64,000 bases of DNA, from contig NC_134297.1 in assembly GCF_949628215.1 (NCBI RefSeq), forward strand, positions 2,852,001 through 2,916,000. Reading direction: 5' to 3'. Numbering within the stretch: position 1 is the first letter of the stretch; each line of letters starts with the position of its first letter. Position numbers and translations under genes: made by a program. The notes below the pieces were generated by a model. The model did no database searches, had not been told where the DNA came from, and worked only from the letters and a program-made list of their open reading frames with translations. The stretch is from Phalacrocorax aristotelis (taxonomy: Eukaryota > Chordata > Aves > Suliformes > Phalacrocoracidae). Positions 23,632-46,590 of this stretch are shown in pieces.

Positions 23632-23994
23632 CTGCAATAAAAAACAAACATAATAAGAAACAACAACACCACAAAACTTAGAGACTAGAGAAAAAAAAAA
23701 ACATCCTAAAAGAACAGCTCTGCCATAGAAAAACCGTTTAACATCTAGGATACACCATTCCCTACACCTACATATCTGGTAGAAAAAACCTCTGAAGAAA
23801 ACCTAAAGCAGCAAGTCCCTCCATGCAGTATATGATGACAGCCCCCACTATCCCATAAAAACCCTGCTGCTTCAGAGCTCGTCTCACCTGAGCCGCGCAC
23901 AGCAGAGCTCCGGCCGGTGCTGGAGCCGGGCTCGGAGGCGGGCACCCCGGGCAAAGCAAGCTGGGCACGCAAGGCGGCGGCCAAAGAGGCTGCG

Positions 23995-25591
23995 CCCCTG
24001 CTTACAGGGGGCTCGAGCCACCGCCTGGACTGCAAAGCGCCCGGGACTCCAGGGCACTGGCCGGGCCCCGGCTTACAGGGCGGCCCTGGTCCCAAAGGCC
24101 CACCGAGGCTCCTTCTCTCCGATTCAGGGGCACCCTGACCCACACCCCGCTAACGGGGCGGTCACCCCACGCAGGCTGCCAGCGGAGCACAAAGGCTCCC
24201 AGGCCCAGACCCTGATTACAGGCAGGTCGACACCCAGGGAGCCAGAGAGCTCGGCCTTCCCCCACAGCGACAGGAACGAGACTCAAAGCCTGGCAGCGGA
24301 GCTTCACGGCCAAAGGCCGGGGGGCCGGGGCCCCGGCCCCGAGGACAGGGAGGGCACACATGCCCGGCCCCCACATCTCCTGGCCCCACGCCTCTGAAAG
24401 GCCAGGGCCAGGGGCACCCGCCTGCTTACAGGGGGTCCCTCCAAGCGCAGGGAACGCGCACGGCCCTGCTTACAGGGTGGCGGTCCCGCTCGGCTCCCAC
24501 AAGCCCCACGGAGCCCGAGGCTCCGACCTGCGCCCGACTTAGGGGCCGGCCGGCCTGGCTGCACCACATCACCACGTCTGCAGGAGCCCAGGGAGCGACC
24601 TCGACCCCAACCGCGGGGAGGTCGCTCCAGCAAAGGCAGCGCCAAAGGCGGGACTGCGCCCTCGGGCACAGCTCTCCCTCAACCTGCACCCTCTAAAGGG
24701 CAAGGGAGGGCTCGTTCCTGTTGGCTGGCTAAAGCAGCCTCCCCAGCCCTGCTTACAGGGGCTCGGGCTGCTCCTGGGGACAGGACAGAGGGCTCCACGG
24801 CTCCTGACACACGCCCCAAGTGCACTCGGGGCTGGCACGCTGGCAGCTCGCCAGCAGGACAGGCAGCCACGCAGGCAGAGACCCAGACCCTGACTACAGG
24901 CTGGTCGCCTTGCCCGCGCTACGACTAAGCGGCTTCGCTCCGTCCTTAGAGAGAAGGGAAAGGGGCAAGCCCGGACTCCCCCTCCACTCGCGGGCTCAGA
25001 GGGGACCCCCCTGTTGCTGCACAGAGCCCTTCTTTCCCTCCCGGGAAGTTGAAGCTAAGCTGCAGCGATTTTAAGGGGGGGCCTAAAGGACAAGCTCACT
25101 CACTCGCTCACACCGACAAGGACAGGGACAAGGGGGGGAGACACACACAAACACAACTTCCCGGAAGAGAGAGCGAGCTCTGTGCAGCCAGTGTCTGGGG
25201 AGCCATCCCTACCCCCGAGCAGGAGAGGAGAGCCTCAGACCTGCCCCCCGGGCTGCACGGAGGCCGAGGGGGGGCCTCAACGTGCCAAGGGGCCTCACGG
25301 GTGGCCGAGGGGCAAATGCCGTGACACGCCCCGACTCCGGGGGTGTCACGCTGGCCAGGCCGCCGGCAGGCAGAAAGCCGCCGCCGGGGCTGGAGCAGGG
25401 GGGCGGGAATACGGCCCTCCCCTGCTTACAGGGTGGGCTTGGGGTCCAGCGAGCTCCATTTCCCCCTCGGGTGCGGAGGCGGTGGCGCTCACCCTCCTTA
25501 CAGGGTCGCCACTCCCTCCAGGCAGCCAGAGGAGCAAGGGCGGCAAAAGGCCCACGACAGCAAAAGCAAAGACCGAGCCCTGGTTACAGGG
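23995..25591. repeat. Twelve short inverted repeats inside unit 1 (sub-repeat motif)
   Basis: Each is a 4-6 bp stem with a 4-nt loop, consensus CCCTG-CTTA-CAGGG. Positions in unit 1: 23995-24010, 24066-24080, 24145-24158, 24211-24222, 24421-24432, 24464-24477, 24689-24700, 24745-24763, 24889-24900, 25420-25433, 25491-25506, 25578-25591. Loops are CTTA, ATTA, ACTA, GTTA or CTAA. At 24145 the stem is CCCCG/CGGGG and at 24689 CCCT/AGGG, so both arms changed together. Most spacings are near 72 bp or a multiple, and many copies are followed by GGTCGCC- or GGTCCC-like sequence. The 2,121-bp unit therefore probably grew from a shorter monomer. The same set recurs in every later unit at +2,121 bp steps. 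Confidence 0.85.
24323..24338. repeat. 16-bp perfect GC palindrome in each unit
   Basis: GGCCGGGGCCCCGGCC is self-complementary and flanked by more G and C runs. It recurs once per unit; unit 9 has a T at about 41294 next to it. It could form a very stable hairpin in RNA or single-stranded DNA. Confidence 0.9.
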
Positions 25592-25824
25592 AGGTCGCCC
25601 AGCGCAAAGCCAGCACGGGCACCCCAAAGGTGCCCGCCCCGCTCTTACGCGACCACGCCCCGGAGACAGGGAGGTCCCTTTGCCCAGAGCGCCTTTCTCG
25701 TGGCCCCTCCGCAGCCCGACGCCGCTCCCCGCTCCTCTTCTCGCTCACTCTTGCCTCGCCGTTCCACACGACGCCTCTTCTCTCTCCTCCGCCAGCTGCT
25801 GCCGAGGAAGGAGGACACGGTTAG

Positions 25825-25890
25825 GCCTGAGCATCACAGGTTGGAAGGGACGCAGCGATCATCTAGTCCACCCTTTGAGAAGCATCAGCT
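25825..25890 (-). mobile_element. CR1 LINE-like 3' fragment embedded in every unit
   Basis: On the plus strand the segment CACAGGTTGGAAGGGACGCA, then GATCATCTAGTCCACCC, matches the hallmark 3' terminal region of avian/reptilian CR1 retrotransposons, which read GGACTAGATGATC...GGTCCCTTCCAACC in sense. The CR1 sense strand is therefore the minus strand. Only about 65 bp remain. Because it is in all units at the same offset (about 27948, 30069, 32190 and so on), it was inside the unit before amplification. It supports a sauropsid origin. Confidence 0.75.
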
Positions 25891-25982
25891 CCTCCAACTC
25901 AAGGAAATGGGGATCCCTACACCCCCAGAGGAAGCTCCCCGAGGCACCACCCGCCCGCCGCCAAGCCCCCACCTCCACAAAA

Positions 25983-28105
25983 CCCTGCTGCTTCAGAGCT
26001 CGTCTCACCTGAGCCGCGCACAGCAGAGCTCCGGCCGGTGCTGGAGCCGGGCTCGGAGGCGGGCACCCCGGGCAAAGCAAGCTGGGCACGCAAGGCGGCG
26101 GCCAAAGAGGCTGCGCCCCTGCTTACAGGGGGCTCGAGCCACCGCCTGGACTGCAAAGCGCCCGGGACTCCAGGGCACTGGCCGGGCCCCGGCTTACAGG
26201 GCGGCCCTGGTCCCAAAGGCCCACGGAGGCTCCTTCTCTCCGATTCAGGGGCACCCTGACCCACACCCCGCTAACGGGGCGGTCACCCCACGCAGGCTGC
26301 CAGCGGAGCACAAAGGCTCCCAGACCGGGACCCTGATTACAGGCAGGTCGACACCCAGGGAGCCAGAGAGCTCGGCCTTCCCCCACAGCGACAGGAACGA
26401 GACTCAAAGCCAGGCAGCGGAGCTTCACGGCCAAAGGCCAGGGGGCCGGGGCCCCGGCCCCGAGGACAGGGAGGGCACACATGCCCGGCCCCCACATCTC
26501 CTGGCCCCACGCCTCTGAAAGGCCAGGGCCAGGGGCACCCGCCTGCTTACAGGGGGTCCCTCCAAGCGCAGGGGACGCGCACGGCCCTGCTTACAGGGTG
26601 GCGGTCCCGCTCGGCTCCCACAAGCCCCACGGAGCCCGAGGCTCCGACCTGCGCCCGACTTAGGGGCCGGCCGGCCTGGCTGCACCACATCACCACGTCT
26701 TCAGGAGCCCAGGGAGCGACCTCGACCCCAACCGCGGGGAGGTCGCTCCAGCAAAGGCAGCGCCAAAGGCGGGACTGCGCCCTCGGGCACAGCTCTCCCT
26801 CAACCTGCACCCTCTAAAGGGCAAGGGAGGGCTCGTTCCTGTTGGCTGGCTAAAGCAGCCTCCCCAGCCCTGCTTACAGGGGCTCGGGCTGCTCCTGGGG
26901 ACAGGACAGAGGGCTCCACGGCTCCTGACACACGCCCCAAGTGCACTCGGGGCTGGCACGCTGGCAGCTCGCCAGCAGGACAGGCAGCCACGCAGGCAGA
27001 GACCCAGACCCTGACTACAGGCTGGTCGCCTTGCCCGCGCTACGACTAAGCGGCTTTGCTCCGTCCTTAGAGAGAAGGGAAAGGGGCAAGCCCGGACTCC
27101 CCCTCCGCTCGCGGGCTCAGAGGGGACCCCCCTGTTGCTGCACAGAGCCCTTCTTTCCCTCCCGGGAAGTTGAAGCTAAGCTGCAGCGATTTTAAGGGGG
27201 GGCCTAAAGGACAATCTCACTCACTCGCTCACACCGACAAGGACAGGGACAAGGGGGGGGGAGACACACACAAACACAACTTCCCGGAAGAGAGAGCGAG
27301 CTCTGTGCAGCCAATGTCTGGGGAGCCATCCCTACCCCCGAGCAGGAGAGGAGAGCCTCAGACCTGCCCCCCGGGCTGCACGGAGGCCGAGGGGGGGCCT
27401 CAACGTGCCAAGGGGCCTCACGGGTGGCCGAGGGGCAAATGCCGTGACACGCCCCGACTCCGGGGGTGTCACGCTGGCCAGGCCGCCGGCAGGCAGAAAG
27501 CCGCCGCCGGGGCTGGAGCAGGGGGGCGGGAATACGGCCCTCCCCTGCTTACAGGGTGGGCTTGGGGTCCAGCGAGCTCCATTTCCCCCTCGGGTGCGGA
27601 GGCGGTGGCGCTCACCCTCCTTACAGGGTCGCCACTCCCTCCAGGCAGCCAGAGGAGCAAGGGCGGCAAAAGGCCCACGACAGCAAAAGCAAAGACCGAG
27701 CCCTGGTTACAGGGAGGTCGCCCAGCGCAAAGCCAGCACGGGCACCCCAAAGGTGCCCGCCCCGCTCTTACGCGACCACGCCCCGGAGACAGGGAGGTCC
27801 CTTTGCCCAGAGCGCCTTTCTCGTGGCCCCTCCGCAGCCCGACGCCGCTCCCCGCTCCTCTTCTCGCTCACTCTTGCCTCGCCGTTCCACACGACGCCTC
27901 TTCTCTCTCCTCCGCCAGCTGCTGCCGAGGAAGGAGGACATGGTTAGGCCTGAGCATCACAGGTTGGAAGGGACGCAGCGATCATCTAGTCCACCCTTTG
28001 AGAAGCATCAGCTCCTCCAACTCAAGGAAATGGGGACCCCTACACCCCCAGAGGAAGCTCCCCGAGGCACCACCCGCCCGCCGCCAAGCCCCCACCTCCA
28101 CAAAA
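25983..28105. repeat. Array unit 2
   Basis: 2,123 bp, with a 9-G run at about 27253 (7 in most units). Private changes include ACAATCTCAC at 27211 and GGCTTTGCTC at 27052. Confidence 0.97.
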
Positions 28106-30226
28106 CCCTGCTGCTTCAGAGCTCGTCTCACCTGAGCCGCGCACAGCAGAGCTCCGGCCGGTGCTGGAGCCGGGCTCGGAGGCGGGCACCCCGGGCAAAG
28201 CAAGCTGGGCACGCAAGGCGGCAGCCAAAGAGGCTGCGCCCCTGCTTACAGGGGGCTCGAGCCACCGCCTGGACTGCAAAGCGCCCGGGACTCCAGGGCA
28301 CTGGCCGGGCCCCGGCTTACAGGGCGGCCCTGGTCCCAAAGGCCCACGGAGGCTCCTTCTCTCCAATTCAGGGGCACCCTGACCCACACCCTGCTAACGG
28401 GGCGGTCACCCCACGCAGGCTGCCAGCGGAGCACAAAGGCTCCCAGACCGGGACCCTGATTACAGGCAGGTCGACACCCAGGGAGCCAGAGAGCTCGGCC
28501 TTCCCCCACAGCGACAGGAACGAGACTCAAAGCCAGGCAGCGGAGCTTCACGGCCAAAGGCCGGGGGGCCGGGGCCCCGGCCCCGAGGACAGGGAGGGCA
28601 CACATGCCCGGCCCCCACATCTCCTGGCCCCACGCCTCTGAAAGGCCAGGGCCAGGGGCACCCGCCTGCTTACAGGGGGTCCCTCCAAGCGCAGGGGACG
28701 CGCACGGCCCTGCTTACAGGGTGGCGGTCCCGCTCGGCTGCCACAAGCCCCACGGAGCCCAAGGCTCCGACCTGCGCCCGACTTAGGGGCCGGCCGGCCT
28801 GGCTGCACCACATCACCACGTCTTCAGGAGCCCAGGGAGCGACCTTGACCCCAACCGCGGGGAGGTCGCTCCAGCAAAGGCAGCGCCAAAGGCGGGACTG
28901 CGCCCTCGGGCACAGCTCTCCCTCAACCTGCACCCTCTAAAGGGCGAGGGAGGGCTCGTTCCTGTTGGCTGGCTAAAGCAGCCTCCCCAGCCCTGCTTAC
29001 AGGGGCTCGGGCTGCTCCTGGGGACAGGACAGAGGGCTCCACGGCTCCTGACACACGCCCCAAGTGCACTCGGGGCTGGCACGCTGGCAGCTCGCCAGCA
29101 GGACAGGCAGCCACGCAGGCAGAGACCCAGACCCTGACTACAGGCTGGTCGCCTTGCCCGCGCTACGACTAAGCGGCTTCGCTCCGTCCTTAGAGAGAAG
29201 GGAAAGGGGCAAGCCCGGACTCCCCCTCCGCTCGCGGGCTCAGAGGGGACCCCCCTGTTGCTGCACAGAGCCCTTCTTTCCCTCCCGGGAAGTTGAAGCT
29301 AAGCTGCAGCGATTTTAAGGGGGGGCCTAAAGGACAAGCTCACTCACTCGCTCACACCGACAAGGACAGGGACAAGGGGGGGAGACACACACAAACACAA
29401 CTTCCCGGAAGAGAGAGCGAGCTCTGTGCAGCCAGTGTCTGGGGAGCCATCCCTACCCCCGAGCAGGAGAGGAGAGCCTCAGACCTGCCCCCTGGGCTGC
29501 ACGGAGGCCGAGGGGGGGCCTCAACGTGCCAAGGGGCCTCACGGGTGGCCGAGGGGCAAATGCCGTGACACGCCCCGACTCCGGGGGTGTCACGCTGGCC
29601 AGGCCGCCGGCAGGCAGAAAGCCGCCGCCGGGGCTGGAGCAGGGGGGCGGGAATACGGCCCTCCCCTGCTTACAGGGTGGGCTTGGGGTCCAGCGAGCTC
29701 CATTTCCCCCTCGGGTGCGGAGGCGGTGGCGCTCACCCTCCTTACAGGGTCGCCACTCCCTCCAGGCAGCCAGAGGAGCAAGGGCGGCAAAAGGCCCACG
29801 ACAGCAAAAGCAAAGACCGAGCCCTGGTTACAGGGAGGTCGCCCAGCGCAAAGCCAGCACGGGCACCCCAAAGGTGCCCGCCCCGCTCTTACGCGACCAC
29901 GCCCCGGAGACAGGGAGGTCCCTTTGCCCAGAGCGCCTTTCTCGTGGCCCCTCCGCAGCCCGACGCCGCTCCCCGCTCCTCTTCTCGCTCACTCTTGCCT
30001 CGCCGTTCCACACGACGCCTCTTCTCTCTCCTCCGCCAGCTGCTGCCGAGGAAGGAGGACACGGTTAGGCCTGAGCATCACAGGTTGGAAGGGACGCAGC
30101 GATCATCTAGTCCACCCTTTGAGAAGCATCAGCTCCTCCAACTCAAGGAAATGGGGACCCCTACACCCCCAGAGGAAGCTCCCCGAGGCACCACCCGCCC
30201 GCCGCCAAGCCCCCACCTCCACAAAA
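28106..30226. repeat. Array unit 3
   Basis: Carries a block of variants shared only with unit 8, exactly 10,605 bp (five units) away: CCAATTCAGG at 28363, CCTGCTAACG at 28390, GGCTGCCACAAG at 28737 and CCCAAGGCTCC at 28758, among others. This marks gene conversion or a past block duplication. Confidence 0.97.
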
Positions 30227-32347
30227 CCCTGCTGCTTCAGAGCTCGTCTCACCTGAGCCGCGCACAGCAGAGCTCCGGCCGGTGCTGGAGCCGGGCTCGG
30301 AGGCGGGCACCCCGGGCAAAGCAAGCTGGGCACGCAAGGCGGCAGCCAAAGAGGCTGCGCCCCTGCTTACAGGGGGCTCGAGCCGCCGCCTGGACTGCAA
30401 AGCGCCCGGGACTCCAGGGCACTGGCCGGGCCCCGGCTTACAGGGCGGCCCTGGTCCCAAAGGCCCACGGAGGCTCCTTCTCTCCGATTCAGGGGCACCC
30501 TGACCCACACCCCGCTAACGGGGCGGTCACCCCACGCAGGCTGCCAGCGGAGCACAAAGGCTCCCAGACCGGGACCCTGATTACAGGCAGGTCGACACCC
30601 AGGGAGCCAGAGAGCTCGGCCTTCCCCCACAGCGACAGGAACGAGACTCAAAGCCAGGCAGCGGAGCTTCACGGCCAAAGGCCGGGGGGCCGGGGCCCCG
30701 GCCCCGAGGACAGGGAGGGCACACATGCCCGGCCCCCACATCTCCTGGCCCCACGCCTCTGAAAGGCCAGGGCCAGGGGCACCCGCCTGCTTACAGGGGG
30801 TCCCTCCAAGCGCAGGGGACGCGCACGGCCCTGCTTACAGGGTGGCGGTCCCGCTCGGCTCCCACAAGCCCCACGGAGCCCGAGGCTCCGACCTGCGCCC
30901 GACTTAGGGGCCGGCCGGCCTGGCTGCACCACATCACCACGTCTTCAGGAGCCCAGGGAGCGACCTCGACCCCAACCGCAGGGAGGTCGCTCCAGCAAAG
31001 GCAGCGCCAAAGGCGGGACTGCGCCCTCGGGCACAGCTCTCCCTCAACCTGCACCCTCTAAAGGGCAAGGGAGGGCTCGTTCCTGTTGGCTGGCTAAAGC
31101 AGCCTCCCCAGCCCTGCTTACAGGGGCTCGGGCTGCTCCTGGGGACAGGACAGAGGGCTCCACGGCTCCTGACACACGCCCCAAGTGCACTCGGGGCTGG
31201 CACGCTGGCAGCTCGCCAGCAGGACAGGCAGCCACGCAGGCAGAGACCCAGACCCTGACTACAGGCTGGTCGCCTTGCCCGCGCTACGACTAAGCGGCTT
31301 CGCTCCGTCCTTAGAGAGAAGGGAAAGGGGCAAGCCCGGACTCCCCCTCCGCTCGCGGGCTCAGAGGGGACCCCCCTGTTGCTGCACAGAGCCCTTCTTT
31401 CCCTCCCGGGAAGTTGAAGCTAAGCTGCAGCGATTTTAAGGGGGGGCCTAAAGGACAAGCTCACTCACTCGCTCACACCGACAAGGACAGGGACAAGGGG
31501 GGGAGACACACACAAACACAACTTCCCGGAAGAGAGAGCGAGCTCTGTGCAGCCAGTGTCTGGGGAGCCATCCCTACCCCCGAGCAGGAGAGGAGAGCCT
31601 CAGACCTGCCCCCCGGGCTGCACGGAGGCCGAGGGGGGGCCTCAACGTGCCAAGGGGCCTCACGGGTGGCCGAGGGGCAAATGCCGTGACACGCCCCGAC
31701 TCCGGGGGTGTCACGCTGGCCAGGCCGCCGGCAGGCAGAAAGCCGCCGCCGGGGCTGGAGCAGGGGGGCGGGAATACGGCCCTCCCCTGCTTACAGGGTG
31801 GGCTTGGGGTCCAGCGAGCTCCATTTCCCCCTCGGGTGCGGAGGCGGTGGCGCTCACCCTCCTTACAGGGTCGCCACTCCCTCCAGGCAGCCAGAGGAGC
31901 AAGGGCGGCAAAAGGCCCACGACAGCAAAAGCAAAGACCGAGCCCTGGTTACAGGGAGGTCGCCCAGCGCAAAGCCAGCACGGGCACCCCAAAGGTGCCC
32001 GCCCCGCTCTTACACGACCACGCCCCGGAGACAGGGAGGTCCCTTTGCCCAGAGTGCCTTTCTCGTGGCCCCTCCGCAGCCCGACGCCGCTCCCCGCTCC
32101 TCTTCTCGCTCACTCTTGCCTCGCCGTTCCACACGACGCCTCTTCTCTCTCCTCCGCCAGCTGCTGCCGAGGAAGGAGGACACGGTTAGGCCTGAGCATC
32201 ACAGGTTGGAAGGGACGCAGCGATCATCTAGTCCACCCTTTGAGAAGCATCAGCTCCTCCAACTCAAGGAAATGGGGACCCCTACACCCCCAGAGGAAGC
32301 TCCCCGAGGCACCACCCGCCCGCCGCCAAGCCCCCACCTCCACAAAA
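30227..32347. repeat. Array unit 4
   Basis: Private changes: ACCGCAGGGAGG at 30976 in place of ACCGCGGGGAGG, and CTTACACGACC at 32010 in place of CTTACGCGACC. Otherwise near identical to unit 5. Confidence 0.97.
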
Positions 32348-34468
32348 CCCTGCTGCTTCAGAGCTCGTCTCACCTGAGCCGCGCACAGCAGAGCTCCGGC
32401 CGGTGCTGGAGCCGGGCTCGGAGGCGGGCACCCCGGGCAAAGCAAGCTGGGCACGCAAGGCGGCGGCCAAAGAGGCTGCGCCCCTGCTTACAGGGGGCTC
32501 GAGCCGCCGCCTGGACTGCAAAGCGCCCGGGACTCCAGGGCACTGGCCGGGCCCCGGCTTACAGGGCGGCCCTGGTCCCAAAGGCCCACGGAGGCTCCTT
32601 CTCTCCGATTCAGGGGCACCCTGACCCACACCCCGCTAACGGGGCGGTCACCCCACGCAGGCTGCCAGCGGAGCACAAAGGCTCCCAGACCGGGACCCTG
32701 ATTACAGGCAGGTCGACACCCAGGGAGCCAGAGAGCTCGGCCTTCCCCCACAGCGACAGGAACGAGACTCAAAGCCAGGCAGCGGAGCTTCACGGCCAAA
32801 GGCCGGGGGGCCGGGGCCCCGGCCCCGAGGACAGGGAGGGCACACATGCCCGGCCCCCACATCTCCTGGCCCCACGCCTCTGAAAGGCCAGGGCCAGGGG
32901 CACCCGCCTGCTTACAGGGGGTCCCTCCAAGCGCAGGGGACGCGCACGGCCCTGCTTACAGGGTGGCGGTCCCGCTCGGCTCCCACAAGCCCCACGGAGC
33001 CCGAGGCTCCGACCTGCGCCCGACTTAGGGGCCGGCCGGCCTGGCTGCACCACATCACCACGTCTTCAGGAGCCCAGGGAGCGACCTCGACCCCAACCGC
33101 GGGGAGGTCGCTCCAGCAAAGGCAGCGCCAAAGGCGGGACTGCGCCCTCGGGCACAGCTCTCCCTCAACCTGCACCCTCTAAAGGGCAAGGGAGGGCTCG
33201 TTCCTGTTGGCTGGCTAAAGCAGCCTCCCCAGCCCTGCTTACAGGGGCTCGGGCTGCTCCTGGGGACAGGACAGAGGGCTCCACGGCTCCTGACACACGC
33301 CCCAAGTGCACTCGGGGCTGGCACGCTGGCAGCTCGCCAGCAGGACAGGCAGCCACGCAGGCAGAGACCCAGACCCTGACTACAGGCTGGTCGCCTTGCC
33401 CGCGCTACGACTAAGCGGCTTCGCTCCGTCCTTAGAGAGAAGGGAAAGGGGCAAGCCCGGACTCCCCCTCCGCTCGCGGGCTCAGAGGGGACCCCCCTGT
33501 TGCTGCACAGAGCCCTTCTTTCCCTCCCGGGAAGTTGAAGCTAAGCTGCAGCGATTTTAAGGGGGGGCCTAAAGGACAAGCTCACTCACTCGCTCACACC
33601 GACAAGGACAGGGACAAGGGGGGGAGACACACACAAACACAACTTCCCGGAAGAGAGAGCGAGCTCTGTGCAGCCAGTGTCTGGGGAGCCATCCCTACCC
33701 CCGAGCAGGAGAGGAGAGCCTCAGACCTGCCCCCCGGGCTGCACGGAGGCCGAGGGGGGGCCTCAACGTGCCAAGGGGCCTCACGGGTGGCCGAGGGGCA
33801 AATGCCGTGACACGCCCCGACTCCGGGGGTGTCACGCTGGCCAGGCCGCCGGCAGGCAGAAAGCCGCCGCCGGGGCTGGAGCAGGGGGGCGGGAATACGG
33901 CCCTCCCCTGCTTACAGGGTGGGCTTGGGGTCCAGCGAGCTCCATTTCCCCCTCGGGTGCGGAGGCGGTGGCGCTCACCCTCCTTACAGGGTCGCCACTC
34001 CCTCCAGGCAGCCAGAGGAGCAAGGGCGGCAAAAGGCCCACGACAGCAAAAGCAAAGACCGAGCCCTGGTTACAGGGAGGTCGCCCAGCGCAAAGCCAGC
34101 ACGGGCACCCCAAAGGTGCCCGCCCCGCTCTTACGCGACCACGCCCCGGAGACAGGGAGGTCCCTTTGCCCAGAGTGCCTTTCTCGTGGCCCCTCCGCAG
34201 CCCGACGCCGCTCCCCGCTCCTCTTCTCGCTCACTCTTGCCTCGCCGTTCCACACGACGCCTCTTCTCTCTCCTCCGCCAGCTGCTGCCGAGGAAGGAGG
34301 ACACGGTTAGGCCTGAGCATCACAGGTTGGAAGGGACGCAGCGATCATCTAGTCCACCCTTTGAGAAGCATCAGCTCCTCCAACTCAAGGAAATGGGGAC
34401 CCCTACACCCCCAGAGGAAGCTCCCCGAGGCACCACCCGCCCGCCGCCAAGCCCCCACCTCCACAAAA
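32348..34468. repeat. Array unit 5
   Basis: 2,121 bp and close to the array consensus; shares AGAGTGCC (about 34173) with units 4, 7, 8, 9 and 10, while units 1, 2, 3 and 6 have AGAGCGCC. Confidence 0.97.
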
Positions 34469-36589
34469 CCCTGCTGCTTCAGAGCTCGTCTCACCTGAGC
34501 CGCGCACAGCAGAGCTCCGGCCGGTGCTGGAGCCGGGCTCGGAGGCGGGCACCCCGGGCAAAGCAAGCTGGGCACGCAAGGCGGCGGCCAAAGAGGCTGC
34601 GCCCCTGCTTACAGGGGGCTCGAGCCGCCGCCTGGACTGCAAAGCGCCCGGGACTCCAGGGCACTGGCCGGGCCCCGGCTTACAGGGCGGCCCTGGTCCC
34701 AAAGGCCCACGGAGGCTCCTTCTCTCCGATTCAGGGGCACCCTGACCCACACCCCGCTAACGGGGCGGTCACCCCACGCAGGCTGCCAGCGGAGCACAAA
34801 GGCTCCCAGACCGGGACCCTGATTACAGGCAGGTCGACACCCAGGGAGCCAGAGAGCTCGGCCTTCCCCCACAGCGACAGGAACGAGACTCAAAGCCAGG
34901 CAGCGGAGCTTCACGGCCAAAGGCCGGGGGGCCGGGGCCCCGGCCCCGAGGACAGGGAGGGCACACATGCCCGGCCCCCACATCTCCTGGCCCCACGCCT
35001 CTGAAAGGCCAGGGCCAGGGGCACCCGCCTGCTTACAGGGGGTCCCTCCAAGCGCAGGGGACGCGCACGGCCCTGCTTACAGGGTGGCGGTCCCGCTCGG
35101 CTCCCACAAGCCCCACGGAGCCCGAGGCTCCGACCTGCGCCCGACTTAGGGGCCGGCCGGCCTGGCTGCACCACATCACCACGTCTTCAGGAGCCCAGGG
35201 AGCGACCTCGACCCCAACCGCGGGGAGGTCGCTCCAGCAAAGGCAGCGCCAAAGGCGGGACTGCGCCCTCGGGCACAGCTCTCCCTCAACCTGCACCCTC
35301 TAAAGGGCAAGGGAGGGCTCGTTCCTGTTGGCTGGCTAAAGCAGCCTCCCCAGCCCTGCTTACAGGGGCTCGGGCTGCTCCTGGGGACAGGACAGAGGGC
35401 TCCACGGCTCCTGACACACGCCCCAAGTGCACTCGGGGCTGGCACGCTGGCAGCTCGCCAGCAGGACAGGCAGCCACGCAGGCAGAGACCCAGACCCTGA
35501 CTACAGGCTGGTCGCCTTGCCCGCGCTACGACTAAGCGGCTTCGCTCCGTCCTTAGAGAGAAGGGAAAGGGGCAAGCCCGGACTCCCCCTCCGCTCGCGG
35601 GCTCAGAGGGGACCCCCCTGTTGCTGCACAGAGCCCTTCTTTCCCTCCCGGGAAGTTGAAGCTAAGCTGCAGCGATTTTAAGGGGGGGCCTAAAGGACAA
35701 GCTCACTCACTCGCTCACACCGACAAGGACAGGGACAAGGGGGGGAGACACACACAAACACAACTTCCTGGAAGAGAGAGCGAGCTCTGTGCAGCCAATG
35801 TCTGGGGAGCCATCCCTACCCCCAAGCAGGAGAGGAGAGCCTCAGACCTGCCCCCTGGGCTGCACGGAGGCCGAGGGGGGGCCTCAACGTGCCAAGGGGC
35901 CTCACGGGTGGCCGAGGGGCAAATGCCGTGACACGCCCCGACTCCGGGGGTGTCACGCTGGCCAGGCCGCCGGCAGGCAGAAAGCCGCCGCCGGGGCTGG
36001 AGCAGGGGGGCGGGAATACGGCCCTCCCCTGCTTACAGGGTGGGCTTGGGGTCCAGCGAGCTCCATTTCCCCCTCGGGTGCGGAGGCGGTGGCGCTCACC
36101 CTCCTTACAGGGTCGCCACTCCCTCCAGGCAGCCAGAGGAGCAAGGGCGGCAAAAGGCCCACGACAGCAAAAGCAAAGACCGAGCCCTGGTTACAGGGAG
36201 GTCGCCCAGCGCAAAGCCAGCACAGGCACCCCAAAGGTGCCCGCCCCGCTCTTACGCGACCGCGCCCCGGAGACAGGGAGGTCCCTTTGCCCAGAGCGCC
36301 TTTCTCGTGGCCCCTCCGCAGCCCGACGCCGCTCCCCGCTCCTCTTCTCGCTCACTCTTGCCTCGCCGTTCCACACGACGCCTCTTCTCTCTCCTCCGCC
36401 AGCTGCTGCCGAGGAAGGAGGACACGGTTAGGCCTGAGCATCACAGGTTGGAAGGGACGCAGCGATCATCTAGTCCACCCTTTGAGAAGCATCAGCTCCT
36501 CCAACTCAAGGAAATGGGGACCCCTACACCCCCAGAGGAAGCTCCCCGAGGCACCACCCGCCCGCCGCCAAGCCCCCACCTCCACAAAA
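34469..36589. repeat. Array unit 6
   Basis: Shares ACTTCCTGG (35764) and CCCAAGCAGG (35821) only with unit 7, showing local exchange between neighbours. Private: GCACAGGCACC at 36221. Confidence 0.97.
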
Positions 36590-38710
36590 CCCTGCTGCTT
36601 CAGAGCTCGTCTCACCTGAGCCGCGCACAGCAGAGCTCCGGCCGGTGCTGGAGCCGGGCTCGGAGGCGGGCACCCCGGGCAAAGCAAGCTGGGCACGCAA
36701 GGCGGCGGCCAAAGAGGCTGCGCCCCTGCTTACAGGGGGCTCGAGCCGCCGCCTGGACTGCAAAGCGCCCGGGACTCCAGGGCACTGGCCGGGCCCCGGC
36801 TTACAGGGCGGCCCTGGTCCCAAAGGCCCACGGAGGCTCCTTCTCTCCGATTCAGGGGCACCCTGACCCACACCCCGCTAACGGGGCGGTCACCCCACGC
36901 AGGCTGCCAGCGGAGCACAAAGGCTCCCAGACCGGGACCCTGATTACAGGCAGGTCGACACCCAGGGAGCCAGAGAGCTCGGCCTTCCCCCACAGCGACA
37001 GGAACGAGACTCAAAGCCAGGCAGCGGAGCTTCACGGCCAAAGGCCGGGGGGCCGGGGCCCCGGCCCCGAGGACAGGGAGGGCACACATGCCCGGCCCCC
37101 ACATCTCCTGGCCCCACGCCTCTGAAAGGCCAGGGCCAGGGGCACCCGCCTGCTTACAGGGGGTCCCTCCAAGCGCAGGGGACGCGCACGGCCCTGCTTA
37201 CAGGGTGGCGGTCCCGCTCGGCTCCCACAAGCCCCACGGAGCCCGAGGCTCCGACCTGCGCCCGACTTAGGGGCCGGCCGGCCTGGCTGCACCACATCAC
37301 CACGTCTTCAGGAGCCCAGGGAGCGACCTCGACCCCAACCGCGGGGAGGTCGCTCCAGCAAAGGCAGCGCCAAAGGCGGGACTGCGCCCTCGGGCACAGC
37401 TCTCCCTCAACCTGCACCCTCTAAAGGGCAAGGGAGGGCTCGTTCCTGTTGGCTGGCTAAAGCAGCCTCCCCAGCCCTGCTTACAGGGGCTCGGGCTGCT
37501 CCTGGGGACAGGACAGAGGGCTCCACGGCTCCTGACACACGCCCCAAGTGCACTCGGGGCTGGCACGCTGGCAGCTCGCCAGCAGGACAGGCAGCCACGC
37601 AGGCAGAGACCCAGACCCTGACTACAGGCTGGTCGCCTTGCCCGCGCTACGACTAAGCGGCTTCGCTCCGTCCTTAGAGAGAAGGGAAAGGGGCAAGCCC
37701 GGACTCCCCCTCCGCTCGCGGGCTCAGAGGGGACCCCCCTGTTGCTGCACAGAGCCCTTCTTTCCCTCCCGGGAAGTTGAAGCTAAGCTGCAGCGATTTT
37801 AAGGGGGGGCCTAAAGGACAAGCTCACTCACTCGCTCACACCGACAAGGACAGGGACAAGGGGGGGAGACACACACAAACACAACTTCCTGGAAGAGAGA
37901 GCGAGCTCTGTGCAGCCAATGTCTGGGGAGCCATCCCTACCCCCAAGCAGGAGAGGAGAGCCTCAGACCTGCCCCCTGGGCTGCACGGAGGCCGAGGGGG
38001 GGCCTCAACGTGCCAAGGGGCCTCACGGGTGGCCGAGGGGCAAATGCCGTGACACGCCCCGACTCCGGGGGTGTCACGCTGGCCAGGCCGCCGGCAGGCA
38101 GAAAGCCGCCGCCGGGGCTGGAGCAGGGGGGCGGGAATACGGCCCTCCCCTGCTTACAGGGTGGGCTTGGGGTCCAGCGAGCTCCATTTCCCCCTCGGGT
38201 GCGGAGGCGGTGGCGCTCACCCTCCTTACAGGATCGCCACTCCCTCCAGGCAGCCAGAGGAGCAAGGGCGGCAAAAGGCCCACGACAGCAAAAGCAAAGA
38301 CCGAGCCCTGGTTACAGGGAGGTCGCCCAGCGCAAAGCCAGCACGGGCACCCCAAAGGTGCCCGCCCCGCTCTTACGCGACCACGCCCCGGAGACAGGGA
38401 GGTCCCTTTGCCCAGAGTGCCTTTCTCGTGGCCCCTCCGCAGCCCGACGCCGCTCCCCGCTCCTCTTCTCGCTCACTCTTGCCTCGCCGTTCCACATGAC
38501 GCCTCTTCTCTCTCCTCCGCCAGCTGCTGCCGAGGAAGGAGGACACGGTTAGGCCTGAGCATCACAGGTTGGAAGGGACGCAGCGATCATCTAGTCCACC
38601 CTTTGAGAAGCATCAGCTCCTCCAACTCAAGGAAATGGGGACCCCTACACCCCCAGAGGAAGCTCCCCGAGGCACCACCCGCCCGCCGCCAAGCCCCCAC
38701 CTCCACAAAA
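36590..38710. repeat. Array unit 7
   Basis: Has CCACATGACGCC at 38493, which puts a TGA in the frame that stays open for 391 codons in other units. It also has ACAGGATCGCC at 38230, shared with unit 10. The broken frame is evidence that the frame is not under coding constraint. Confidence 0.97.
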
Positions 38711-40831
38711 CCCTGCTGCTTCAGAGCTCGTCTCACCTGAGCCGCGCACAGCAGAGCTCCGGCCGGTGCTGGAGCCGGGCTCGGAGGCGGGCACCCCGGG
38801 CAAAGCAAGCTGGGCACGCAAGGCGGCAGCCAAAGAGGCTGCGCCCCTGCTTACAGGGGGCTCGAGCCGCCGCCTGGACTGCAAAGCGCCCGGGACTCCA
38901 GGGCACTGGCCGGGCCCCGGCTTACAGGGCGGCCCTGGTCCCAAAGGCCCACGGAGGCTCCTTCTCTCCAATTCAGGGGCACCCTGACCCACACCCTGCT
39001 AACGGGGCGGTCACCCCACGCAGGCTGCCAGCGGAGCACAAAGGCTCCCAGACCGGGACCCTGATTACAGGCAGGTCGACACCCAGGGAGCCAGAGAGCT
39101 CGGCCTTCCCCCACAGCGACAGGAACGAGACTCAAAGCCAGGCAGCGGAGCTTCACGGCCAAAGGCCGGGGGGCCGGGGCCCCGGCCCCGAGGACAGGGA
39201 GGGCACACATGCCCGGCCCCCACATCTCCTGGCCCCACGCCTCTGAAAGGCCAGGGCCAGGGGCACCCGCCTGCTTACAGGGGGTCCCTCCAAGCGCAGG
39301 GGACGCGCACGGCCCTGCTTACAGGGTGGCGGTCCCGCTCGGCTGCCACAAGCCCCACGGAGCCCAAGGCTCCGACCTGCGCCCGACTTAGGGGCCGGCC
39401 GGCCTGGCTGCACCACATCACCACGTCTTCAGGAGCCCAGGGAGCGACCTTGACCCCAACCGCGGGGAGGTCGCTCCAGCAAAGGCAGCGCCAAAGGCGG
39501 GACTGCGCCCTCGGGCACAGCTCTCCCTCAACCTGCACCCTCTAAAGGGCGAGGGAGGGCTCGTTCCTGTTGGCTGGCTAAAGCAGCCTCCCCAGCCCTG
39601 CTTACAGGGGCTCGGGCTGCTCCTGGGGACAGGACAGAGGGCTCCACGGCTCCTGACACACGCCCCAAGTGCACTCGGGGCTGGCACGCTGGCAGCTCGC
39701 CAGCAGGACAGGCAGCCACGCAGGCAGAGACCCAGACCCTGACTACAGGCTGGTCGCCTTGCCCGCGCTACGACTAAGCGGCTTCGCTCCGTCCTTAGAG
39801 AGAAGGGAAAGGGGCAAGCCCGGACTCCCCCTCCGCTCGCGGGCTCAGAGGGGACCCCCCTGTTGCTGCACAGAGCCCTTCTTTCCCTCCCGGGAAGTTG
39901 AAGCTAAGCTGCAGCGATTTTAAGGGGGGGCCTAAAGGACAAGCTCACTCACTCGCTCACACCGACAAGGACAGGGACAAGGGGGGGAGACACACACAAA
40001 CACAACTTCCCGGAAGAGAGAGCGAGCTCTGTGCAGCCAGTGTCTGGGGAGCCATCCCTACCCCCGAGCAGGAGAGGAGAGCCTCAGACCTGCCCCCTGG
40101 GCTGCACGGAGGCCGAGGGGGGGCCTCAACGTGCCAAGGGGCCTCACGGGTGGCCGAGGGGCAAATGCCGTGACACGCCCCGACTCCGGGGGTGTCACGC
40201 TGGCCAGGCTGCCGGCAGGCAGAAAGCCGCCGCCGGGGCTGGAGCAGGGGGGCGGGAATACGGCCCTCCCCTGCTTACAGGGTGGGCTTGGGGTCCAGCG
40301 AGCTCCATTTCCCCCTCGGGTGCGGAGGCGGTGGCGCTCACCCTCCTTACAGGGTCGCCACTCCCTCCAGGCAGCCAGAGGAGCAAGGGCGGCAAAAGGC
40401 CCACGACAGCAAAAGCAAAGACCGAGCCCTGGTTACAGGGAGGTCGCCCAGCGCAAAGCCAGCACGGGCACCCCAAAGGTGCCCGCCCCGCTCTTACGCG
40501 ACCACGCCCCGGAGACAGGGAGGTCCCTTTGCCCAGAGTGCCTTTCTCGTGGCCCCTCCGCAGCCCGACGCCGCTCCCCGCTCCTCTTCTCGCTCACTCT
40601 TGCCTCGCCGTTCCGCACGACGCCTCTTCTCTCTCCTCCGCCAGCTGCTGCCGAGGAAGGAGGACACGGTTAGGCCTGAGCATCACAGGTTGGAAGGGAC
40701 GCAGCGATCATCTAGTCCACCCTTTGAGAAGCATCAGCTCCTCCAACTCAAGGAAATGGGGACCCCTACACCCCCAGAGGAAGCTCCCCGAGGCACCACC
40801 CGCCCGCCGCCAAGCCCCCACCTCCACAAAA
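38711..40831. repeat. Array unit 8
   Basis: Carries the same variant block as unit 3 over at least about 1.4 kb (38820-40110), and has private changes CAGGCTGCCGG at 40205 and TTCCGCACG at 40611. Confidence 0.97.
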
Positions 40832-42953
40832 CCCTGCTGCTTCAGAGCTCGTCTCACCTGAGCCGCGCACAGCAGAGCTCCGGCCGGTGCTGGAGCCGGG
40901 CTCGGAGGCGGGCACCCCGGGCAAAGCAAGCTGGGCACGCAAGGCGGCGGCCAAAGAGGCTGCGCCCCTGCTTACAGGGGGCTCGAGCCGCCGCCTGGAC
41001 TGCAAAGCGCCCGGGACTCCAGGGCACTGGCCGGGCCCCGGCTTACAGGGCGGCCCTGGTCCCAAAGGCCCACGGAGGCTCCTTCTCTCCGATTCAGGGG
41101 CACCCTGACCCACACCCCGCTAACGGGGCGGTCACCCCACGCAGGCTGCCAGCGGAGCACAAAGGCTCCCAGACCGGGACCCTGATTACAGGCAGGTCGA
41201 CACCCAGGGAGCCAGAGAGCTCGGCCTTCCCCCACAGCGACAGGAACGAGACTCAAAGCCAGGCAGCGGAGCTTCACGGCCAAAGGCCGGGGGGTCGGGG
41301 CCCCGGCCCCGAGGACAGGGAGGGCACACATGCCCGGCCCCCACATCTCCTGGCCCCACGCCTCTGAAAGGCCAGGGCCAGGGGCACCCGCCTGCTTACA
41401 GGGGGTCCCTCCAAGCGCAGGGGACGCGCACGGCCCTGCTTACAGGGTGGCGGTCCCGCTCGGCTCCCACAAGCCCCACGGAGCCCGAGGCTCCGACCTG
41501 CGCCCAACTTAGGGGCCGGCCGGCCTGGCTGCACCACATCACCACGTCTTCAGGAGCCCAGGGAGCGACCTTGACCCCAACCGCGGGGAGGTCGCTCCAG
41601 CAAAGGCAGCGCCAAAGGCGGGACTGCGCCCTCGGGCACAGCTCTCCCTCAACCTGCACCCTCTAAAGGGCGAGGGAGGGCTCGTTCCTGTTGGCTGGCT
41701 AAAGCAGCCTCCCCAGCCCTGCTTACAGGGGCTCGGGCTGCTCCTGGGGACAGGACAGAGGGCTCCACGGCTCCTGACACACGCCCCAAGTGCACTCGGG
41801 GCTGGCACGCTGGCAGCTCGCCAGCAGGACAGGCAGCCACGCAGGCAGAGACCCAGACCCTGACTACAGGCTGGTCGCCTTGCCCGCGCTACGACTAAGC
41901 GGCTTCGCTCCGTCCTTAGAGGGAAGGGAAAGGGGCAAGCCCGGACTCCCCCTCCGCTCGCGGGCTCAGAGGGGACCCCCCTGTTGCTGCACAGAGCCCT
42001 TCTTTCCCTCCCGGGAAGTTGAAGCTAAGCTGCAGCGATTTTAAGGGGGGGCCTAAAGGACAAGCTCACTCACTCGCTCACACCGACAAGGACAGGGACA
42101 AGGGGGGGGAGACACACACAAACACAACTTCCCGGAAGAGAGAGCGAGCTCTGTGCAGCCAATGTCTGGGGAGCCATCCCTACCCCCGAGCAGGAGAGGA
42201 GAGCCTCAGACCTGCCCCCCGGGCTGCACGGAGGCCGAGGGGGGGCCTCAACGTGCCAAGGGGCCTCACGGGTGGCCGAGGGGCAAATGCCGTGACACGC
42301 CCCGACTCCGGGGGTGTCACGCTGGCCAGGCCGCCGGCAGGCAGAAAGCCGCCGCCGGGGCTGGAGCAGGGGGGCGGGAATACGGCCCTCCCCTGCTTAC
42401 AGGGTGGGCTTGGGGTCCAGCGAGCTCCATTTCCCCCTCGGGTGCAAAGGCGGTGGCGCTCACCCTCCTTACAGGGTCGCCACTCCCTCCAGGCAGCCAG
42501 AGGAGCAAGGGCGGCAAAAGGCCCACGACAGCAAAAGCAAAGACCGAGCCCTGGTTACAGGGAGGTCGCCCAGCGCAAAGCCAGCACGGGCACCCCAAAG
42601 GTGCCCGCCCCGCTCTTACGCGACCGCGCCCCGGAGACAGGGAGGTCCCTTTGCCCAGAGTGCCTTTCTCGTGGCCCCTCTGCAGCCCGACGCCGCTCCC
42701 CGCTCCTCTTCTCGCTCACTCTTGCCTCGCCGTTCCACACGACGCCTCTTCTCTCTCCTCCGCCAGCTGCTGCCGAGGAAGGAGGACACGGTTAGGCCTG
42801 AGCATCACAGGTTGGAAGGGACGCAGCGATCATCTAGTCCACCCTTTGAGAAGCATCAGCTCCTCCAACTCAAGGAAATGGGGACCCCTACACCCCCAGA
42901 GGAAGCTCCCCGAGGCACCACCCGCCCGCCGCCAAGCCCCCACCTCCACAAAA
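40832..42953. repeat. Array unit 9
   Basis: 2,122 bp with an 8-G run at about 42102. Private: GGGGGGTCGGGG near 41289 and GTGCAAAGGCGG at 42442. Shares TTAGAGGGAAGG with unit 10. Confidence 0.97.
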
Positions 42954-45075
42954 CCCTGCTGCTTCAGAGCTCGTCTCACCTGAGCCGCGCACAGCAGAGC
43001 TCCGGCCGGTGCTGGAGCCGGGCTCGGAGGCGGGCACCCCGGGCAAAGCAAGCTGGGCACGCAAGGCGGCGGCCAAAGAGGCTGCGCCCCTGCTTACAGG
43101 GGGCTCGAGCCGCCGCCTGGACTGCAAAGCGCCCGGGACTCCAGGGCACTGGCCGGGCCCCGGCTTACAGGGCGGCCCTGGTCCCAAAGGCCCACGGAGG
43201 CTCCTTCTCTCCGATTCAGGGGCACCCTGACCCACACCCCGCTAACGGGGCGGTCACCCCACGCAGGCTGCCAGCGGAGCACAAAGGCTCCCAGACCGGG
43301 ACCCTGATTACAGGCAGGTCGACACCCAGGGAGCCAGAGAGCTCGGCCTTCCCCCACAGCGACAGGAACGAGACTCAAAGCCAGGCAGCGGAGCTTCACG
43401 GCCAAAGGCCGGGGGGCCGGGGCCCCGGCCCCGAGGACAGGGAGGGCACACATGCCCGGCCCCCACATCTCCTGGCCCCACGCCTCTGAAAGGCCAGGGC
43501 CAGGGGCACCCGCCTGCTTACAGGGGGTCCCTCCAAGCGCAGGGGACGCGCACGGCCCTGCTTACAGGGTGGCGCTCCCGCTCGGCTCCCACAAGCCCCA
43601 CGGAGCCCAAGGCTCCGACCTGCGCCCGACTTAGGGGCCGGCCGGCCTGGCTGCACCACATCACCACGTCTTCAGGAGCCCAGGGAGCGACCTTGACCCC
43701 AACCGCGGGGAGGTCGCTCCAGCAAAGGCAGCGCCAAAGGCGGGACTGCGCCCTCGGGCACAGCTCTCCCTCAACCTGCACCCTCTAAAGGGCGAGGGAG
43801 GGCTCGTTCCTGTTGGCTGGCTAAAGCAGCCTCCCCAGCCCTGCTTACAGGGGCTCGGGCTGCTCCTGGGGACAGGACAGAGGGCTCCACGGCTCCTGAC
43901 ACACGCCCCAAGTGCACTCGGGGCTGGCACGCTGGCAGCTCGCCAGCAGGACAGGCAGCCACGCAGGCAGAGACCCAGACCCTGACTACAGGCTGGTCGC
44001 CTTGCCCGCGCTACGACTAAGCGGCTTCGCTCCGTCCTTAGAGGGAAGGGAAAGGGGCAAGCCTGGACTCCCCCTCCGCTCGCGGGCTCAGAGGGGACCC
44101 CCCTGTTGCTGCACAGAGCCCTTCTTTCCCTCCCGGGAAGTTGAAGCTAAGCTGCAGCGATTTTAAGGGGGGGCCTAAAGGACAAGCTCACTCACTCGCT
44201 CACACCGACAAGGACAGGGACAAGGGGGGGGAGACACACACAAACACAACTTCCCGGAAGAGAGAGCGAGCTCTGTGCAGCCAATGTCTGGGGAGCCATC
44301 CCTACCCCCGAGCAGGAGAGGAGAGCCTCAGACCTGCCCCCCGGGCTGCACGGAGGCCGAGGGGGGGCCTCAACGTGCCAAGGGGCCTCACGGGTGGCCG
44401 AGGGGCAAATGCCGTGACACGCCCCGACTCCGGGGGTGTCACGCTGGCCAGGCCGCCAGCAGGCAGAAAGCCGCCGCCGGGGCTGGAGCAGGGGGGCGGG
44501 AATACGGCCCTCCCCTGCTTACAGGGTGGGCTTGGGGTCCAGCGAGCTCCATTTCCCCCTCGGGTGCGGAGGCGGTGGCGCTCACCCTCCTTACAGGATC
44601 GCCACTCCCTCCAGGCAGCCAGAGGAGCAAGGGCGGCAAAAGGCCCACGACAGCAAAAGCAAAGACCGAGCCCTGGTTACAGGGAGGTCGCCCAGCGCAA
44701 AGCCAGCGGGGGCACCCCAAAGGTGCCCGCCCCGCTCTTACGCGACCGCGCCCCGGAGACAGGGAGGTCCCTTTGCCCAGAGTGCCTTTCTCGTGGCCCC
44801 TCCGCAGCCCGACGCCGCTCCCCGCTCCTCTTCTCGCTCACTCTTGCCTCGCCGTTCCACACGACGCCTCTTCTCTCTCCTCCGCCAGCTGCTGCCGAGG
44901 AAGGAGGACACGGTTAGGCCTGAGCATCACAGGTTGGAAGGGACGCAGCGATCATCTAGTCCACCCTTTGAGAAGCATCAGCTCCTCCAACTCAAGGAAA
45001 TGGGGACCCCTACACCCCCAGAGGAAGCTCCCCGAGGCACCACCCGCCCGCCGCCAAGCCCCCACCTCCACAAAA
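42954..45075. repeat. Array unit 10
   Basis: 2,122 bp with an 8-G run at about 44224. Private: GGCGCTCCCGC at 43572 and CCAGCGGGGGC at 44702. Confidence 0.97.
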
Positions 45076-45983
45076 CCCTGCTGCTTCAGAGCTTGTCTCA
45101 CCTGAGCCGCGCACAGCAGAGCTCCGGCCGGTGCTGGAGCTGGGCTCGGAGGCGGGCACCCCGGGCAAAGCAAGCTGGGCACGCAAGGCGGCGGCCAAAG
45201 AGGCTGCGCCCCTGCTTACAGGGGGCTCGAGCTGCCGCCTGGACTGCAAAGCGCCCGGGACTCCAGGGCACTGGCCGGGCCCCGGCTTACAGGGCGGCCC
45301 TGGTCCCAAAGGCCCACGGAGGCTCCTTCTCTCCGATTCAGGGGCACCCTGACCCACACCCCGCTAACGGGGCGGTCACCCCACGCAGGCTGCCAGCGGA
45401 GCACAAAGGCTCCCAGACCGGGACCCTGATTACAGGCAGGTCGACACCCAGGGAGCCAGAGAGCTCGGCCTTCCCCCACAGCGACAGGAACGAGACTCAA
45501 AGCCAGGCAGCGGAGCTTCACGGCCAAAGGCCGGGGGGCCGGGGCCCCGGCCCCGAGGACAGGGAGGGCACACGCGCCCGGCCCCACGCCTCTGAAAGGC
45601 CAGGGCCAGGGGCACCCGCCTGCTTACAGGGGGTCCCTCCAAGCGCAGGGGACGCGCACGGCCCTGCTTACAGGGTGGCGGTCCCGCTCGGCTCCGACCT
45701 GCGCCCAACTTAGGGGCCGGCCGGCCTGGCTGCACCACATCACCACGTCTTCAGGAGCCCAGGGAGCGACCTTGACCCCAACCGCGGGGAGGTCGCTCCA
45801 GCAAAAGCAGCGCCAAAGGCGGGACTGCGCCCTCGGGCACAGCTCTCCCTCAACCTGCACCCTCTAAAGGGCAAGGGAGGGCTCGTTCCTGTTGGCTGGC
45901 TAAAGCAGCCTCCCCAGCCCTGCTTACAGGGGCTCGGGCTGCTCCTGGGGACAGGACAGAGGGCTCCACGGCTCCTGACACAC
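45076..45983. repeat. Array unit 11, partial (right edge)
   Basis: About 908 bp remain. Two deletions are private to it: 16 bp at 45580-45585, between GGCCCC direct repeats, and 27 bp at 45690-45695, between GGCTCC direct repeats. Both look like slippage or microhomology deletions. The identity to other units stops after CTCCTGACACAC. Confidence 0.93.
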
Positions 45984-46085
45984 TCCAATTTAGGGGCACC
46001 TTGATCCATGGGTTGACCCACTCCCTTCTGCGCTAGCTGGTGTTGAGGAAGGATACATTTAGGCCTGATAATGCTAACCTATCTA
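45984..46085. repeat. Decayed remnant of the array unit
   Basis: Two pieces of the unit persist in collapsed form: CTCCAATTTAGGGGCACC, then TTGATCCA (from 45983), matches the unit's CTCCGATTCAGGGGCACC, then CTGACCCA, with four differences, all transitions. Then CGCTAGCTGGTGTTGAGGAA (from about 46031) and TTAGGCCTGA match the unit's segment before its CR1 piece. They are about 1.6 kb apart in an intact unit and about 50 bp apart here. Confidence 0.7.
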
Positions 46086-46590
46086 CTAGAAATGGAGTAA
46101 GATTGACTTTTGGAGCTCTACTCTGAATTCTGTGTTCCGTCTTAAACCCATATCATGTCGAATTTTTATTTCGTGCATCTTCCTCTTCTGTTTTCCCCAG
46201 CTGTATTCCCTCTTTTTCTCACTGCACCCATCCCGGCCATTCAGTGCAGGAAAATCTGTTGCTGAACTCACCGTCCTGTATGGGTTCATCATTCTTCTCC
46301 TTTCCTCCCAGAAGATTATTTTCATGAATTTCTGGTGCACCTATGCTTCAGACCTTTAAATAATGGTCAATACCATTGCTAAATTATTATTTTGAGTGAC
46401 TCCCTAGGAGACAGATCTTTTTTCCTCAGAAAATCCATGCCTATGATCGTTTTATCATTTCTCTTGCACCTTAGTTCCTAGAGCCAAAACAGCCACACAA
46501 ATCAAGAAGGTTCATTTAGCTTCCCCTGCTAAAATCTTCATCCATTCTGGTATTTTCAGCAACCTGTAATATCATAGTTTCTCTCACAAA
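46086..46590. other. AT-rich spacer, nothing recognised
   Basis: Composition drops sharply from the GC-rich array to AT-rich sequence. Pyrimidine-rich on the plus strand with several TTTTCC/CTTTCC runs. No gene or known element is recognised. Confidence 0.5.

Follow-up and report, generated by a model that had tools for sequence, protein, structure and literature searches.

A 64,000-nucleotide stretch of the Phalacrocorax aristotelis genome (C22:2852001-2916000, hereafter the window) contains a tandem array of GC-rich units, array A, which lies beside THY1 and is the subject of this analysis. Array A occupies positions 23858..45983 on the plus strand (C22:2875858-2897983) and comprises ten units of 2121-2123 bp followed by an incomplete eleventh of 912 bp (0.43 unit), giving a total of 10.4 units. 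Self-comparison of the window revealed identity maxima at a lag of 2121 and its multiples, and the units start at positions 23858, 25979, 28102, 30223, 32344, 34465, 36586, 38707, 40828, 42950 and 45072, confirming the head-to-tail arrangement proposed in the original prediction. Unit 1 (23858..25978, plus strand) supplies the reference numbering 1-2121, and unit 11 (45072..45983, plus strand) carries deletions of 16 and 27 bp. The array is absent from the Tandem Repeats Finder output because the longest period covered there is 500 bp.

Pairwise differences among the ten full units range from 0.14 to 1.08%, and just 0.19% separates the third unit (U3) from the eighth (U8), which stands five units further on. 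The GC content is about 68%, with a CpG observed/expected ratio of 0.60 versus 0.18-0.33 in the flanks, in keeping with the earlier description of a young, GC-rich, macrosatellite-like array. That description also allowed for scattered substitutions only. Substitutions are indeed present, but so are small insertions and deletions (indels), including those of unit 11; 33 of the 51 substitution variants are changes from CpG to TpG/CpA or the reverse, and distant units hold variants in common.

Contig C22 measures 8.36 Mb in an assembly of 1.279 Gb and 352 contigs, a size that fits a bird microchromosome, as had been surmised. The nearest verified gene is THY1, represented by an exon for the immunoglobulin V-set of Thy-1 at 11511..12251 on the minus strand. 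The open reading frame (ORF) there matches Thy-1 chain 9pms_C in phmmer (E 2.8e-28) and contains a V-set domain, which bears out the predicted adjacency. A further ORF at 1901-2818, without a Pfam match, presumably corresponds to the N-terminus of USP2. NECTIN1 was not seen near array A, and no search aimed at NECTIN1 was made.

A survey of the species' own genome uncovered a second array, array B (C22:1,523,669-1,548,146), consisting of twelve units spaced 2023-2048 bp apart (about 2.03 kb). Arrays A and B lie 1.3 Mb apart on C22 and are 91% identical across the unit; their divergence is about 9% when the full unit is compared with indels counted, and 0.84% at cleanly aligned non-CpG sites. 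Within array B, the 11 units compared differ by 0.10-0.99%. Both arrays are thus head-to-tail series of highly identical units of one to several kilobases, which is one of the defining traits of a macrosatellite, with copy numbers that come from one assembly. About 11 kb to the right of array B lies a GC-rich and CpG-rich stretch (C22:1559000-1560600), possibly the promoter of some gene.

A unit-specific 29-mer, searched with up to three mismatches, gave at least 25 matches in the genome. All of them fall on C22: array A accounts for 11, array B for 12, and two single-copy clusters for one apiece. The two clusters, near 1.631-1.635 and 2.369-2.373 Mb, are 96-98% identical in opposite orientation, and most of their unit pieces show 68-91% identity to array A. 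They belong to an inverted duplicate of about 6 kb (C22:1.6308-1.6368 and 2.3667-2.3730 Mb), about 740 kb apart, with rearranged unit copies; this duplicate also holds a 52-bp GC-rich minisatellite, with 10.5 copies in the 1.6308-1.6368 Mb copy. One 286-bp piece (unit 48-333; C22:1631113-1631398 and its inverted twin 2372423-2372708) is 96-98% like array A.

Older copies exist on other contigs as well. The copy at C2:80980475-80982422 covers nearly the whole unit at 72% identity, and single or partial copies lie at C4:14.146 Mb, C4:15.517 Mb, C4:39.522 Mb and C24:5.003 Mb. The locus is therefore not the single isolated one first described. In a search of the genome with the whole unit, at least 49 matches were listed outside arrays A and B, and 29 of these cover just the tail at unit 1973-2022, a fragment that we take to be of the CR1 family (25830..25879 in unit 1, plus strand). 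As far as this search reached, arrays occur on C22 only, and no match to a known dispersed satellite, the outcome that was to be checked for, emerged.

The C2 copy sheds light on how the arrays may have formed. It consists of one unit with 111-bp direct repeats (79% alike) whose starts lie 2,095 bp apart, and it looks like the state before amplification. Given that the array units are 2.03-2.12 kb long, close to this repeat spacing, unequal exchange between such repeats would yield arrays. The boundaries of array B, unit 1906 at its start and unit 1982 at its end, fall within or barely beyond the direct repeat of the C2 type. The CR1-like fragment, whose exact marker string is present in all ten full array A units and in 10 of 11 array B units, has no match at the single-copy loci of C2 and C22, and amplification therefore appears to postdate its insertion.

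The right flank of array A is colinear with the 3′ flank of the C2 copy from 46045 onward, at 61-79% identity. Directly outside the array, a diverged unit remnant (45984..46083, plus strand) comprises pieces resembling unit 261-285 (84%, E 0.52) and unit 1923-1973 (75%, E 0.043); each piece is weak, yet together they form the top score among 835 flank windows. The adjoining segment at 46045..47318 (plus strand; 61% identity to the sequence 3′ of the C2 copy) includes a degenerate AT-rich minisatellite of about 46 bp, and the segment at 50528..51613 (plus strand) matches, in the species' own genome, only itself and C2. Two searched pieces of this flank gave own-genome matches on C22 and C2 only. 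Because array A retains this colinearity, it probably stands at the older position, with array B seeded elsewhere; the array B flanks that were fetched do not match those of array A.

Several other features accompany this flank. Colinearity with C2 extends over 46045-51613 and then over 69914-70562 in the window's numbering, at 61-79%, and gaps of 2.2 and 18.3 kb in the array A flank have no C2 counterpart. The minisatellite at 46700-47310 contains recurring words like AAATTACC(C/T)CAG and is present on C2 too. The interval 47301-47800 is CpG-rich (GC 77%, CpG observed/expected 0.93), and its position 47597 has the highest CTCF-like score in the window (15.0 bits, with an approximate matrix). 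The colinear C22-C2 segment looks like an ancient low-copy duplication. A retrocopy origin of the C2 segment was considered and rejected, the gaps between colinear blocks, judged by eye, being without clear splice sites; plain insertion or deletion is the likelier explanation of these gaps.

Units within each array probably exchange sequence. The four-gamete test is failed by 47 of the 120 pairs of informative sites in array A and by 44 of 210 in array B. Recurrent CpG mutation could mimic exchange in array A, where 12 of the 16 informative sites are CpG and just one failure joins two non-CpG sites (six such pairs), which weighs against reading the test as exchange alone. On a rough reckoning with an assumed mutation rate of about 2e-9 per site and year, the non-CpG diversity of 0.19% would mean that the units were homogenised in the course of some half a million years, and the 0.84% divergence between arrays A and B would correspond to about two million years.

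CpG sites are 14-15 times more variable than other sites inside each array. In array A, within-array difference is 2.9% at CpG sites versus 0.19% at other sites, and in array B 2.7% versus 0.20%; the corresponding values between the arrays are 8.0% and 1.8%. This hypervariability suggests germline methylation of the array CpGs. Of the 139 array A CpGs in the aligned element, 130 are also CpG in array B and six in the C2 copy. Between the arrays, CpG sites have changed less than expected from the within-array rate: the ratio of CpG to other changes is 56:24 among polymorphic sites versus 10:24 among fixed ones (p 8e-5, unmasked).

Substitution direction revealed a contrast between the arrays and their single-copy relatives. 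New variants within the arrays comprise 53 strong-to-weak changes (S>W, from G or C to A or T) and 6 weak-to-strong changes (W>S). When the tree is rooted with the C2 copy, 19 changes on the stem leading to arrays A and B are W>S and 2 are S>W, versus 7 and 21 in the single-copy sister (p 7e-6); rooting with C4 gives 22 and 5 versus 4 and 16 (p 3e-5), and sites at which C2 and C4 agree give 11 and 1 versus 3 and 9 (p 0.003). Array B has since accumulated 8 W>S and 1 S>W changes after the A-B split. At array A CpGs that read TG or CA in the sister, most other lineages agree with the sister at 13 sites, disagree at 2 and are undecided at 3 (p 0.007). Since the sister carries the majority state at 13 of the 15 sites that could be decided, most of these CpGs were probably acquired on the array lineage. 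The unit reaches 69% GC in array A versus 59% in C2, and all five paired flank pieces have lower GC in A than in C2, so the rise in GC is confined to the array.

Several observations weigh against a GC bias and against a simple contrast between arrays and off-array DNA. With indel neighbourhoods masked, the polymorphic and fixed ratios become 50:17 and 3:6, and the p value weakens to 0.019; with columns near gaps removed, the stem contrast weakens to p 0.002 (C2) and 0.005 (C4). Parallel CpG loss imitates CpG gain and inflates the stem counts. Gains and losses of CpG (13 versus 9 with C2, 13 versus 8 with C4) lie near the expectation from parallel loss, and the sister's decayed sites, compared with C2 alone, are the same at 8 and different at 4. 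Once CpG-prone sites are removed, the W>S:S>W ratios of stem and sister are 2:1 versus 3:9 with C2 as outgroup (p 0.24) and 3:1 versus 1:5 with the majority outgroup (p 0.19). Array A itself has acquired 2 W>S and 6 S>W changes since its split from B, which argues against a steady GC bias in A. Finally, decay has not reached all off-array DNA: of the 24 CpGs scored in the 286-bp piece at C22:1631113-1631398, 21 are intact, and its likeness to array A would follow from either a recent exchange with the arrays or its own recent arrival.

All three stem-sister contrasts at sites that are not CpG-prone keep the original direction but are small. With C4 as outgroup the counts are 5:1 on the stem versus 2:7 in the sister (p 0.04), and new variants at such sites number 16 S>W and 2 W>S (p 0.08, 0.003 and 0.02 versus the stem). 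The combined signature of CpG hypermutation and W>S fixation bias is accordingly strong on the stem, weak without CpG-prone sites and reversed in the latest changes of array A. On these counts, GC-biased exchange between units appears likely.

Searches of the unit for signs of function gave one positive pattern. An 18-bp motif, CCCTGnTTACAGGGnGGnC, occurs in 13 same-strand copies per unit (up to three mismatches allowed in the first 14 bases) between unlike linkers, whereas 200 shuffled units gave at most three. In unit 1 the 13 copies span 23996..25676 on the plus strand; the motif, a near-palindrome, also scores at six places on the opposite strand, and no clear short period was found among its copies. 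Motif cores show greater similarity than linkers in each of four comparisons (C4, p 0.02; C22 copy, 0.09; array B, 0.11; C2, 0.51). A protein-binding site under selection was nonetheless rejected, core conservation being slight and below p 0.05 in just one of the four. An apparent genome-wide excess of a 13-mer (150 + 35 versus 3 + 2 for the control) was likewise set aside: 96 of 154 placed matches (100 from the listing and 54 from array A, with 31 others not listed) fall in arrays A and B, and the reversed control is unfairly rare because it contains a CpG.

A coding array was also rejected. The unit length of 2121 is divisible by three and an open frame of 397 amino acids exists, but shuffled units reach 422 amino acids at the 95% level, and Pfam found no domain in any of the nine unit ORFs tested, which counts against coding. 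None of five flank ORFs reached a curated Pfam cut-off, the best being a weak match to DUF7777 (E 0.023, 15.4 bits versus a cut-off of 27). Rfam returned no match in the window at the gathering score, no G-quadruplex (G4) was found in the unit, and the viral and prokaryote collections contained no exact 24-mer match. The best CTCF-like site in the unit scored 7.9 bits versus a shuffled median of 11.3, with the same approximate matrix. Going by this absence of signs, the array most likely has no specific cellular role.

These observations are best accommodated, with a probability of about 62%, by a local macrosatellite family of one microchromosome, shaped by unequal exchange, concerted evolution, methylated CpGs and GC-biased conversion and having no role of its own. 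On this view, some 2 kb of non-coding DNA flanked by direct repeats of about 110 bp, one unit apart, would have gained a CR1 fragment on C22 and then been amplified in tandem by unequal exchange, in place beside THY1, to give array A. Array B would have arisen in a second amplification 1.3 Mb away that began from a unit of that lineage. Exchange among units would keep each array uniform (concerted evolution), the array CpGs would be germline-methylated and fast-mutating, and GC-biased conversion between units would most likely reverse part of the CpG loss, yielding a GC- and CpG-rich unit as older copies outside the arrays decay. Of this scheme, the sequence itself displays the two uniform arrays, the variants that units have in common, the hypervariable CpGs, the single copy on C2 and the GC contrast to the flanks; unequal exchange, methylation, a causal GC bias and the absence of a function are inferred from it. 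A bolder extension, which we put forward tentatively and consider somewhat doubtful, is that the arrays offer methylated CpG a refuge: GC-biased exchange would restore lost CpGs, keeping the units CpG-island-like though methylated, and copies that depart would decay.

The most serious competitor, which we regard as unlikely, is recent tandem amplification without any GC bias, in which the arrays would owe their CpG richness solely to youth and descent from an unmethylated CpG island, and the older single copies would simply have decayed. Non-CpG diversity of just 0.19-0.20% within the arrays agrees with such youth, parallel CpG loss can yield much of the stem pattern, just one of the three outgroups brings the strict non-CpG tests below p 0.05, and the 6 S>W versus 2 W>S latest changes of array A point the same way. 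It is harder to reconcile with the 13 of 15 decided sites that place the sister's TG or CA with the majority, implying that the CpGs were probably gained rather than kept, and with a CpG change between arrays below the prediction from the within-array rate. An assembly artefact, in which one or a few true units were multiplied by the assembler, would account for U3 and U5 having no private variant in an array known from the assembly alone; private variants in 9 of 11 units, mosaic sharing of variants between distant units, and an array B of another unit length with equal internal diversity make this highly improbable.

A regulatory function like that of DXZ4/D4Z4 or chicken MHM, with an array switched by methylation, transcribed or protein-binding and acting on THY1 or its neighbours, is suggested by the unit size, GC content and nearness to a gene, which recall those loci, and by the 13-fold one-strand motif with its more similar cores. 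Against it stand the lack of a CTCF-like site above shuffled background, of a G4 and of any Pfam or Rfam match, and a count of 10-12 units rather than hundreds; we consider it improbable, and a regulatory-element role is unsupported so far. Very improbable, too, is a dispersed transposable element fragment that was later amplified in tandem. Old related copies on C2, C4 and C24 would suit such an origin, as would the several copies that end 3′ near unit 1964-1980 with varied 5′ limits. Yet the CR1 fragment begins at unit 1973 in array A, and the C2 and C4 copies remain alike for about 160 bp further; two pieces beside array A match C22 and C2 only, arrays or full copies at many places were not seen in the genome searches, whose counts are lower bounds, and 0 of 14 tested ORFs reach a curated Pfam cut-off. 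Ancient low-copy duplication fits better than dispersal of a transposable element.

Array A belongs to already known kinds of sequence, the local satellite and macrosatellite families, as a new member. Going by the passages available from PMC4992247, chicken chromosome arms carry many small satellite families, which are richer on small chromosomes, with satellites counted from more than 50 units. The present case resembles these in being a local tandem family with arrays confined to one small chromosome, and differs in its 2-kb unit, its 10-12 copies and its traceable single-copy paralogue. The chicken MHM locus contains over 200 copies of a 2.2-kb repeat (PMC2453332), which has been cloned and is methylated in males (PMC4004567). 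Here too the host is a bird, the unit is of similar size and CpG methylation appears to matter; on a comparison by description only, MHM is Z-linked near DMRT1, has more than 200 copies and is transcribed in females as a non-coding RNA, whereas the units here number 10.4 and 12 on the 8.36-Mb C22, which carries THY1.

Human DXZ4 and D4Z4, as outlined in PMC3491370 and PMC5333175, share kilobase-scale, GC-rich and CpG-rich tandem units with array A. The CTCF site per unit of DXZ4 and the homeobox ORF per unit of D4Z4 have no counterpart here by the matrix and Pfam results given above, and nothing supports the link to DXZ4/D4Z4-like chromatin organisation drawn by the original prediction. A further parallel may be the class of methylated CpG islands maintained by biased gene conversion, named in the portion of PMC5333175 at hand: the arrays are likewise CpG-rich, with a methylation-type mutation spectrum and W>S change on their stem. 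Unlike in that class, the likely driver here is inter-unit exchange, and the off-array copies provide an internal control. Within the open-licence literature, no title or abstract opening describes this repeat; the queries did not name THY1, USP2 or NECTIN1.

Collectively, the locus documents the birth of a macrosatellite in an example that is young, small and assembled, comprising a single-copy paralogue with bounding repeats, two diverging arrays and decayed off-array copies. For bird microchromosomes, it allows direct measurement of how much mutation, unequal exchange and GC-biased conversion each contribute. If the arrays do shelter methylated CpG, they and their off-array copies on one microchromosome would serve as an internal control for that process.

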